Shown here: positions 7,828 to 62,540 of the stretch, one piece after another
How positions within the stretch are numbered: position 1 is the first letter of the stretch
Layout of the letters: every line of letters starts with the position of its first letter
From: Acidobacteriota bacterium
Lineage (GTDB): Bacteria > Acidobacteriota > Blastocatellia > RBC074
NCBI GenBank assembly: GCA_016196035.1
Contig: JACPYM010000091.1
Span: forward strand, 2,501-66,500
Length of the DNA: 64,000 nucleotides
Reading direction: 5' to 3'
Made by a program: the position numbers and the translations under genes
The notes under the pieces: model-generated
Databases searched by the model: none
What the model saw: only the letters and a program-made list of their open reading frames with translations
Told to the model about the DNA's origin: nothing

Positions 7828-7901
7828 GCAAACCAGTTGGCGGTTGGCGGTTAGCGGTTGGCAGTTGACGGTTTGAAAAGTTGGCGATGATCTTAGCTCA
7901 G

Positions 7902-8031
7902 TAGGAGCGCGATGTTTATAGCCACGGTCAGCGACAATTCTTCCAGCCCCAGAGGGGGCGACATGTGCCACATTTCGCTCCTCTGGAGCTGGAATTCACA
8001 TTCCGCGCTGACTATAAACATCCCGCTCCTA
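7902..8031. repeat. Nested palindromic repeat, about 130 nt
   Basis: Outer arms TAGGAGCGCGATGTTTATAG and CTATAAACATCCCGCTCCTA pair with one mismatch. Inner arms starting GTCAGCG and ending CGCTGAC, around CCAGCCCCAGAGG / CCTCTGGAGCTGG, also pair. It abuts P1 copy b by a shared TA. Confidence 0.65.
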
Positions 8032-8208
8032 GAGCGGTTTGCAGTTGCGTTTACGGGTGTCAGTTGAGGCCAGGACAGTACCGCGGGCGTGAGCAAGCGG
8101 CGCGTCAAGCTTGCCCCCTTGGCTGAATTGCCAAAGCACCGCTTGCTCACGCCCGCGGTACTGTCCCGCTGCGCGGTTTTCCCGTACACCGTAGTGAAAA
8201 CCGATCTA
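8030..8208. repeat. Dispersed palindromic element P1, copy b
   Basis: Begins TAGAGCGGTTTGCAGTTGCG and ends GTGAAAACCGATCTA. The core arms 8073-8100 and 8139-8166 are 28-nt exact reverse complements. Against the other copies this core carries CGGGCG on the left and CGCCCG on the right, a matched change on both arms. Confidence 0.82.
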
Positions 8209-8298
8209 ACGGAGCTAAGTTTTCAACCAGCCTCTAACTGCTAATCGCTAACCGCTAACCGCCAACTGCCAACCACTAACCATTTCCAAGGAGAAGTT

Positions 8299-15140: not shown

Positions 15141-15300
15141 GCGGTTGGCGATTGGCGGTTGGCGGTTGGCAATTGATGGTTGATGGTCTGTCGCAATCGT
15201 AGAGAACTCAATGCCTACCATTCGCCATCCGCTTCCTACGGCATCCGATAAACAGTAACCGCAAACCGCCAACCGCCAACCGCCAACCGCCAACCGCCAG
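15141..15300. repeat. Inverted heptad-tract hairpin H2
   Basis: Left arm 15141-15187 repeats GCGGTTG units; right arm 15257-15300 repeats AACCGCC six times. The arms are complementary and start at the base after the TPR stop codon. Confidence 0.82.
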
Positions 15301-27954: not shown

Positions 27955-28190
27955 AATTTCAAATTTGAAATTGGAGACTCAGGAGTTCCAAATTTCCGCT
28001 TGTCGCGAAGTGTCGTACCAGAGAACTGACTCCTGACTCCTGGTTCCTGATTCCTGACCAACGAAAAATGCTGGCTGATTTTCTGCCTGGCAGGAATCAG
28101 GAATCAGGAATCAGGAATCAGTTGAGTCTCCAAGTCTATGTTTCACCCCAATTTTTGGAACTACTGCGACTCGAAATTGGAGATGAGGGC
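27955..28190. repeat. Nested heptad hairpin H6 between pyrB and pyrC
   Basis: The inner arms are five heptads each: AACTGAC TCCTGAC and so on (28024-28059) against CAGGAAT x4 plus CAGTT (28089-28123). The outer arms pair AATTTGAAATTGGAGACTC (from about 27960) with GAGTCTCC and TCGAAATTGGAGA-type words up to 28188. It fills the entire pyrB-pyrC gap. Confidence 0.85.
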
Positions 28191-28194
28191 ACAG

Positions 28195-29133
28195 CTATTC
28201 ACCGCCTGCCAGCAAATACAGCACCGCCATCCGCACCGACACGCCATTGTTCACCTGATCCAAAATCAGCGAGAAGGGCCCATCGGCTACGTCGGAATCA
28301 ATCTCGACGCCGCGATTGATCGGGCCGGGGTGCATGACGATGGCGCCAGGTTTGGCTAGCGCCAAGCGGCGGCGGTTCAGGCCGTAATAGGTCGAGTATT
28401 CGCGCAACGAAGGGAAAAAGCCGCCCGACTGCCGCTCCAATTGGATGCGCAACATCATCACGACATCGGCGTCAGCAATCGCATCGTTGACGTGCGGGGC
28501 GAAGGTCACGGAGCCTTCCGACGGCGCGAGCAGTTTTTCAAAACCGAAAGGCAGCAGCGTGCGCGGCCCGGCGAAGACTACGTGCGCGCCAAGCTTGGAA
28601 AGCAGGTGCGCGTTGGAGCGCGCGACGCGGCTGTGCAGCACATCGCCGATGATGGCGACTTTTAAGCCTGCGAGCCGGTGCTTGTTCTGGCGGATGGTCA
28701 GCGCGTCGAGCAGCGCCTGCGTCGGGTGTTCGTGCGCGCCATCGCCCGCGTTGATGACACCGGCTTGTACGTGTTGCGCCAGCGCGTGCGGCGCGCCCGA
28801 TGACGGATGGCGGATGACAATCGCGTCGGGCGACATGGCCTGCAGATTGAGCGCGGTGTCAATCAGCGTCTCGCCTTTGACGACGCTCGATGTCGAAGCC
28901 GAAATGTTGATCGCATCGGCGGAGAGGCGCTTGGCCGCGATTTCAAAGCTGGTGCGCGTGCGCGTCGAGGCTTCAAAGAAAAGATTGATGATGGTTTTGC
29001 CGCGCAGCGTGGGGACTTTTTTGATGCGGCGCGTGTTGATGTCGCGAAACGTCTCGGCGGTGTCGAGGATCAAATTGATCTCTTCGACGCTCAGGTCGGC
29101 GATGCCCAGCAGGTCTTTGCGTTTAAGAGGCAT
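28195..29133 (-). CDS. pyrB: Aspartate carbamoyltransferase catalytic subunit
   Basis: Joins carbamoyl phosphate and L-aspartate to carbamoyl aspartate, step 2 of pyrimidine synthesis. The 312-aa protein has the carbamoyl-phosphate motif [12 protein letters not shown] (about residues 53-64), [12 protein letters not shown], and RIQLERQ near residue 230. [10 protein letters not shown] near the C-terminus is conserved. No pyrI regulatory gene is present in the window. Upstream lies the four-helix-bundle gene inserted between it and pyrR; downstream is pyrC. Confidence 0.95.
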
Positions 29134-29140
29134 TCGGAAA

Positions 29141-29628
29141 GTTCGAGGTTCTGAGTTCTACGTTCTGGGTTTTGAGTGCCGCGTTTGTAAATCACCCGCT
29201 CTATGTATTAGCGGGTTTGATTTGCACGCAGATAGCTGGAAAAGCCGATGATCAGGGAAGACGTTTCTTCAGCGAGCTTATACAAGCTGTCAAAGGCGGC
29301 TTGGTTGATATAACCAATGTCCAGCGCCACGTAAAGCAGCGATTGCGTTTCCATCGTCGAGCCGCGCGCCATATCGAGAAAGTGGGCGAAGTCCTTGTTG
29401 CTGCTATGCCCAAAACCTTCAGCAATGTTGCTCATTGACGAAACGGCGGCACGGCAGATTTGATTGCGCAAGCCATAATCCTGGCTAATCGCACCGCTGC
29501 CGCAAGTCTTGTAAATCTCGTGGGCCAGCTCGCGGGCCTTTTGCCAGGCTTTGATCTCCTCAAACTTTCTGATCGCCGCCATTGCGACCTCCTCCAACAT
29601 AGAACTCAGAACCCAGAACTTAGAACAC
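29141..29628. repeat. Inverted heptad arms H7 bracketing the four-helix-bundle gene
   Basis: The arm 29141-29177 repeats GTTCTGA/GTTCTAC/GTTCTGG. The arm 29601-29628 repeats AGAACTC/AGAACCC/AGAACTT/AGAACAC. They are complementary. The second arm touches the pyrR stop codon and the first lies 8 nt from the pyrB start. Confidence 0.85.
29208..29582 (-). CDS. Four-helix-bundle protein (23S rRNA-IVS/S23 family)
   Basis: A 124-aa all-helical protein beginning [20 protein letters not shown], the standard opening of the family known from intervening sequences of 23S rRNA and related to the Avd accessory proteins of diversity-generating retroelements. [21 protein letters not shown] is its second hallmark. 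The ATG at 29582 has GGAGGAGG upstream; the frame continues to 29642, but that part is heptad repeat. It may bind nucleic acid. It sits inside the pyr operon between two complementary heptad arms, which looks like an insertion. No reverse transcriptase is nearby. Confidence 0.85.
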
Positions 29629-30174
29629 TTAGGGGTGTTCAACCACGATGACTTTTTCCGTCTCGTCGAATTCGGGCAGCATTACCTTGATGATTTCGGT
29701 TTCGGTGGTCGTGACGGTCTTGCCGACGTAATCGGCCTGGATTGGCAATTCGCGCCAGCCGCGATCAATCAACACGGCCAGTTGCACGCGGCGCGGGCGG
29801 CCAAAATCAATCAGTTCATCCAGCGCGGCGCGGATCGTGCGGCCCGTGTAAAGCACGTCATCCACCAGAATGATCGTCTTGCCGGTGATGTCGGCAGGCA
29901 ATTCGGTTTTATTGACGACGGGGCGTTCGCCGACGGTGCTTAGGTCGTCACGATAGAGCGTGATGTCGAGCGCGCCGGTGGCGACGGTAACGCCGTCCAT
30001 TTCGTTGATCTTGGCGGCGATGCGTTCGGCCAGCGGGACGCCGCGCCGCCGTATGCCGACGAGCAGCACGTTGCCGAGGTCGGGGTTGTTTTCGACGACT
30101 TGCGAAGCCATGCGCGCCAGCACGCGGCTCATATCGGCGGCGGTCATCACCACGGATTTTTCAATAAAGTCCAT
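29629..30174 (-). CDS. pyrR: Bifunctional pyr operon regulator / uracil phosphoribosyltransferase
   Basis: A 181-aa PRTase-fold protein. The PRPP-binding motif [20 protein letters not shown] is at about residues 96-115. [17 protein letters not shown] and ITLYRDDL are also typical of PyrR, which binds pyr mRNA in a UMP-dependent way to attenuate the operon and has weak UPRT activity. It overlaps the end of the zinc-finger gene by 14 nt, implying coupled translation. I did not find a clear PyrR-binding RNA hairpin; the heptad hairpin right after its stop is a different type of structure. Confidence 0.9.
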
Positions 30175-38113: not shown

Positions 38114-38211
38114 AAGTCTGGGAAAGTCTGGGAAAGTCTGGGAAAGTCCGGCGGTCATTCGTTGCCAGAATTCTCCAGGCTTTTCGAGACTTTTCGAGAC
38201 TTTTCCAGACT
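38114..38211. repeat. Inverted decamer hairpin H9
   Basis: The left arm repeats AGTCTGGGAA (38114-38151) and the right arm repeats TTTTCGAGAC (38175-38211), each with a 10-nt period, and they are complementary over 37 nt with several mismatches. It starts 5 nt after the thiG stop on the minus strand. Confidence 0.8.
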
Positions 38212-62453: not shown

Positions 62454-62540
62454 GTGGTAGTCGGTAGTCGGTAGTCGGTAGTCAACAGTTGGTCTTTGAA
62501 CACAAAGAACCGACTACCGACTACTGGCTACCGACTACTC
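62454..62540. repeat. Heptad hairpin H14 carrying the galE stop codon
   Basis: The left arm repeats TAGTCGG (62454-62497) and the right arm repeats CCGACTA (62503-62540); the loop is only about 5 nt. The galE stop (62521-62523) and its last codons (VVGSQ) are in the right arm. Confidence 0.88.

Follow-up and report, generated by a model that had tools for sequence, protein, structure and literature searches.

The S23 gene located between pyrR and pyrB and the two inverted heptad arrays on either side of it very probably constitute a single mobile element, which is related to the intervening sequences (IVSs) of 23S rRNA but intergenic. The element lies in a 64,000-nt stretch of contig JACPYM010000091.1 (assembly GCA_016196035.1, Acidobacteriota bacterium), hereafter called the window. 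On the minus strand the pyrR stop (29629) is followed by a 7-nt array, the S23 ORF, a complementary array and the pyrB start (29133), the same order as in the preliminary description of this DNA. The features of the locus are the following:

28195..29133, minus strand: pyrB, host gene downstream
29134..29628, minus strand: entire S23 hairpin element, from the pyrR stop to the pyrB start
29139..29177, minus strand: 3' arm, inverted array complementary to the 5' arm
29208..29582, minus strand: S23 / TIGR02436 / PF05635 four-helix-bundle gene, 124 aa
29596..29626, minus strand: 5' arm, array of the 7-nt unit GTTCTRR (coding-strand reading)
29629..30174, minus strand: pyrR, host gene upstream

The outer limits of the element were set as the intercistronic gap, since a base-level limit would need a close empty relative and none exists. 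The S23 ORF starts with an ATG at 29582, with GGAGGAGG upstream of it, and ends with a stop at 29208. The arms are complementary at 88% over 26 nt, or 77% over 31 nt, and their score of 20 was equalled at 4 of 1943 random same-span positions within the window, which has one other long-loop heptad hairpin (7836-8273). The predicted fold of the transcript pairs the arms (z = -4.9).

The 124-aa product belongs to PF05635/TIGR02436 (S23, "23S rRNA intervening sequence protein"), PF05635 being its sole Pfam match (E 5e-34). Eleven matches to this family are present in the window genome, and the family was found in 30 of the 38 genomes searched. The predicted structure (pLDDT 94.6) matches Xcc0516 (2gsc, TM 0.87) and BT_0352 (2rld) and, less closely, Avd (4dwl, TM 0.73, 9% identity), as well as the DGR RT complex 8ub7; thus the relation to Avd that had been proposed from the sequence holds at the fold level. 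Avd is a pentamer, and we know of no catalytic site in S23. Xcc0516, which shares the fold, is likewise described as a pentamer (Lin 2006, cited in PMC4990558). DGRs have an RT, a template and a variable repeat, whereas none of these was found accompanying S23.

That the family is known from 23S rRNA IVSs, as had also been stated, is borne out by the IVS of Coxiella burnetii, which is ~430 nt long, has termini that pair into a 28-bp stem, and carries an S23p ORF preceded by tandem heptamers, GACAGAT (PMC4990558; see also Ralph and McClelland 1993, as cited there). Both kinds of element therefore have a loop that holds an S23 ORF, inverted repeats at the termini that pair into a long stem, and tandem heptamers, so the intergenic elements are of the IVS kind and not categorically new. 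The IVS sits within an rRNA gene and is described as excised by RNase III, whereas the pyrR-pyrB element is intergenic, and the intergenic elements add lineage-specific units, gene-less derivatives and target duplications. No conserved 23S motif was detected by a simple motif match near any of 142 loci. Beyond the Coxiella IVS, we found in the open-access literature no link of S23 or GxxExxY genes (a second family, see below) to inverted heptads.

Bracketing of the gene family by inverted heptads, which the preliminary description had proposed to look for genome-wide, proved to be near-universal. Within the class, the 250-nt flanks of 62 PF05635 copies from eight genomes were compared as inverted repeats; their scores had a median of 22, as compared with 9 at random positions of equal span (95th percentile 12, maximum 15), and 54 of the 62 copies were bracketed (score of at least 15). 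A scan of species genomes across phyla gave 65 bracketed loci out of 80, versus 5 of 229 control positions; these loci came from Acidobacteriota, Pseudomonadota, Planctomycetota, Cyanobacteriota, Bacteroidota, Bacillota, Chloroflexota, CPR, others and one archaeal bin. Chance inverted repeats were ruled out by random same-span, swapped-flank and cross-phylum nulls. The unit varies between loci, and among the 129 scored in the class and other phyla its length was 7 nt in 108, 8 nt in 16, 9 nt in four and 6 nt in one. In the 7-nt arrays the median number of units per arm is 4.4 (mode 4), which does not support the idea of exactly five units matching a pentamer. When 678 kb around S23 loci were scanned de novo, hairpins with loops of 11-125 nt were gene-less and those holding S23 had loops mostly of 350-610 nt; other long loops contained one S23 pseudogene, one GxxExxY gene and, in one window hairpin, neither, while two loops of ~1 kb enclose ordinary genes and look like chance pairing of separate arrays.

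Comparison among loci further shows that each S23 protein lineage is paired with a unit of its own, always in one polarity. For 113 loci, unit similarity was 0.52-0.56 below 60% protein identity and rose to 0.70 at 60-70% and 0.73 at 70-80%, whereas with the polarity reversed it stayed flat (0.43-0.48); the Mantel test gave p = 0.003 for the same polarity versus 0.44 for the reversed one. The upstream arm is richer in G than in C on the coding strand in 103 of the 113 scorable loci, with a rotation consensus GTAGTCA. Unit length also clusters on the protein tree, with 13 changes versus 18.2 when shuffled (0 of 200 shuffles as low), on a tree that has few columns and leaves many forks unresolved. 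A cyanobacterium and an acidobacterium whose proteins are 68% identical share the units CGGGAGT/AGGGAGT.

Mobility is likewise shown by comparison of related sequences. Two copies in G031 are 95% identical over 447 nt, the identity ending at the arms with no similarity outside, and show a dN/dS of 0.07. At the fabI junction, studied in 30 loci of one genus (two of them lacking one flank), precise empty sites were seen together with the S23 element in two loci, an unrelated ORF in one, and gene-less hairpins of at least eight different units. One hairpin at this junction (L275, unit GGATTTT) holds an ORF of ~140 aa that by eye is neither S23 nor GxxExxY, possibly a third type of cargo. Plasmids of Trichormus and Scytonema carry an element that is missing from plasmids 96% identical to them in Aulosira, Nostoc and Tolypothrix, with GTAAT (5 bp) duplicated at the insertion, and the Aulosira and Nostoc plasmids carry the same element at other sites. 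A second cyanobacterial target duplication, TTCTA, is clean and a third, TAATG/TTATG, has one mismatch; some insertions show no visible duplication. Precise empty sites and target-site duplication, generally asked of DNA transposable elements, were thus both found, the duplication being of 5 bp in the two clean cases. Since arms and gene duplicate jointly, empty sites are precise and two 5-bp duplications are clean, we regard the element as a mobile cassette and not as a gene dropped into a hairpin. The preliminary description had left open whether the gene was a cargo carried by the hairpin or inserted into it; "carried" fits better, the arms travelling with the gene and the unit tracking the protein lineage.

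In Picosynechococcus PCC 7003 an element is located between cmr2 and cmr3, and the same junction in PCC 7002 is without it. Genes named 23S_rRNA_IVP, belonging to the same family, have been reported in cas loci among functions associated with CRISPR-Cas, including a Pleurocapsa gene between cmr3 and cmr2 (PMC3936711), a position like that in PCC 7003; given that the PCC 7002 junction lacks the gene, such cas-locus genes, at least, are more simply read as insertions.

According to one alternative, the heptad hairpins would be independent, host-driven repeats (slippage arrays or terminator-like structures) and the S23 genes passengers that land or survive in their loops. Gene-less hairpins are indeed more numerous than gene-bearing ones (26 in a 795-kb sample, about 30 per Mb), and one junction, as seen at fabI, hosts hairpins of many units. 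However, the unit and its period track the protein lineage, the arms are copied along with the gene, and gene-less hairpins match the S23 units of their own genome: for 40 such hairpins (one of which, L041, belongs to an array beside an S23 gene and is to be discounted) similarity was 0.75 to own-genome units versus 0.62 to those of other genomes (permutation p 0.001), and 0.56 in reversed polarity. Moreover, no short-loop gene-less hairpin was found in 387 kb of S23-negative genomes, where 12.7 were expected at the rate of the positive ones, a contrast that is not phylogenetically independent, the negative genomes coming from few families; one of them has a single hairpin with a 236-nt loop. 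On these points we consider the passenger reading very unlikely.

In the window genome itself, the GTTCTRR unit occurs at nine sites (control patterns gave 1-2 hits), of which the window element is the only one with an S23 gene; the rest are six gene-less hairpins of the same polarity, one mixed and one single array. These six were identified by reading the sequences, a strict detector calling one of them. In the 795-kb sample, selected without regard to S23, a single long-loop hairpin reached a score of 16, and it held GxxExxY; the 372-nt loop of the window (7836-8273) falls outside this sample. In the Nostoc ATCC 53789 plasmid pNsp_c a gene-less hairpin (L311) occupies the place where L293 and L305, with shared flanks, carry the S23 element, a form that may be an internal deletion.

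The mobile cassette might instead spread by retrotransposition through its hairpin RNA, with S23 acting as an Avd-like partner of a reverse transcriptase, as the fold matches to Avd and 8ub7, the orientation along host transcription and the report of PF05635 as Avd-like and common near DGRs (PMC10053308) would suggest. This is very unlikely, since near-complete genomes with 5-10 S23 copies (G012, G023, G028, G032 and G035) have no match to PF00078. A reverse transcriptase was accordingly rejected as a general requirement, RVT_1 being missing from these five genomes by an HMM search that a divergent RT could escape. The window genome does have RT genes, none of them near the pyrR-pyrB locus.

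It is highly improbable that the element is a host-useful regulatory module in which S23 binds its own mRNA hairpin and sets operon stability or coupling, a role consistent with co-orientation, the stable RNA fold and purifying selection, as it is not conserved at the junctions examined, including pyrR-pyrB, and pseudogenes and remnants of S23 elements exist. Relatives lacking the gene, which the preliminary description had proposed to look for, are the rule there: among 30 readable junctions of the class the gene is present in the window genome and missing from all 29 others, instead of being conserved at this site across the phylum without flanking repeats, and a conserved host function at pyrR-pyrB was thereby ruled out. 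About seven of the junctions are bare or nearly so, ten have gene-less hairpins of other units, and further ones have other inserts. One junction (G004) contains a 337-nt insert with other, non-heptad nested inverted repeats (L157); in another (L155, G007) the gap is taken up by another gene, judged by eye to encode an isoprenylcysteine methyltransferase-like membrane protein.

A second family, unrelated to S23, is of like architecture: GxxExxY (PF13366, TIGR04256; PDDEXK_3), present in 26 of the 38 genomes. Bracketing scores of at least 16 were obtained for 27 of its 30 copies, against a null maximum of 14, and the units of its arms are roughly 8-10 nt. The units become more alike with rising protein identity in just one of the two polarities (Spearman 0.40 vs -0.04; related loci are not independent, making the p-value optimistic). 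At one junction of genus g12, seven species have a GxxExxY-sized insert with CACAGAG arms, and others have gene-less hairpins of like unit or are near-empty; the gene itself was checked in G016, and the other inserts align along the whole query. Given such gene-bearing and gene-less hairpins of like unit in sister species, internal deletion is another way in which gene-less forms could arise. Tentatively, at least two unrelated families of small proteins, the S23 pentamer and the PDDEXK-like GxxExxY, may each move hairpins ended by tandem arrays, reading the unit, paired with it by lineage and serving gene-less hairpins in trans, which would make them a new class of bacterial mobile element, with many unexplained inverted 7-9-nt repeat hairpins in bacterial genomes among its products.

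As to mechanism, we infer that S23 binds the repeats or drives their movement. An S23 pentamer, forming an Avd-like ring, would recognise its own tandem units in a strand-specific manner on the single-stranded or cruciform hairpin, and would bring in or shield the machinery for copying the hairpin into fresh staggered cuts; hairpins without a gene would then be non-autonomous copies moved by S23 in trans. Having no known catalytic site, S23 may also be a passenger or a regulator, with a host enzyme as the mover. S23 points the same way as the upstream gene in 81 of 94 loci and as the downstream gene in 73 of 90 (ORF heuristic), which is consistent with expression from the host transcript; the operon transcript is probably what is translated, and RNase III may cut its stem as in rRNA IVSs. 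RAYTs are Y1 HUH transposases, whereas S23 is a four-helix bundle (2gsc/2rld/Avd fold) with no chemistry known to us, and REP is a single short palindrome, whereas the S23 arms are arrays of 7-9-nt units. The likeness is in organisation, RAYT/REPIN likewise having a gene flanked by repeats and dispersed gene-less inverted pairs of that repeat (PMC3116915), and it provides a model of how the S23 element may work.

S23/TIGR02436 is commonly annotated and has had structures solved but has no function assigned, and the heptamer repeats of bacteria have no agreed origin; the present finding joins both. Intergenic tandem 7-mers are described as GGGAATC in Xanthomonas, often as inverted pairs (PMC4692102), as TAACTGA in Beggiatoaceae (PMC4679880) and as the STRRs of cyanobacteria. 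In the portions of the first two reports drawn on here the heptamers are tied to no gene family, whereas the S23 heptads are the ends of an element; PMC4679880 does speculate that a repeat-binding protein might itself be the mobile element. If our reading is true, rRNA IVSs would extend into a genome-wide mobile family, IVP genes in cas operons and recurrent intercistronic hairpins would have a simpler account, and many naturally matched protein-repeat pairs would be available for direct tests of recognition.

The window contains five other hairpins, listed here with no strand assigned:

7836..8273: GTTGGCG heptads around a 372-nt loop in which no gene was recognised
15141..15299: GTTGGCG heptads, gene-less, 86-nt loop
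28026..28121: CTGATTC / CAGGAAT heptads, gene-less, 33-nt loop, lying between pyrB and pyrC
38114..38211: gene-less hairpin, 10-nt unit AAGTCTGGGA, loop 31
62456..62538: gene-less heptad hairpin GGTAGTC, loop 25

Their loops had been described as short and empty, which stands for four of the five (25-86 nt) and fails for 7836-8273 as regards length, its 372-nt loop having no recognisable gene; this loop holds a nested inverted repeat (GACAGTACCGCGGGCGTGAGCAAGCGG...). Rfam returned for the 28026-28121 hairpin sub-threshold microRNA matches only, taken as chance. This hairpin is a second insertion into the same pyr operon. Its unit resembles that of the S23 element at L047; counting against the mobile-element reading, its polarity is the opposite one.
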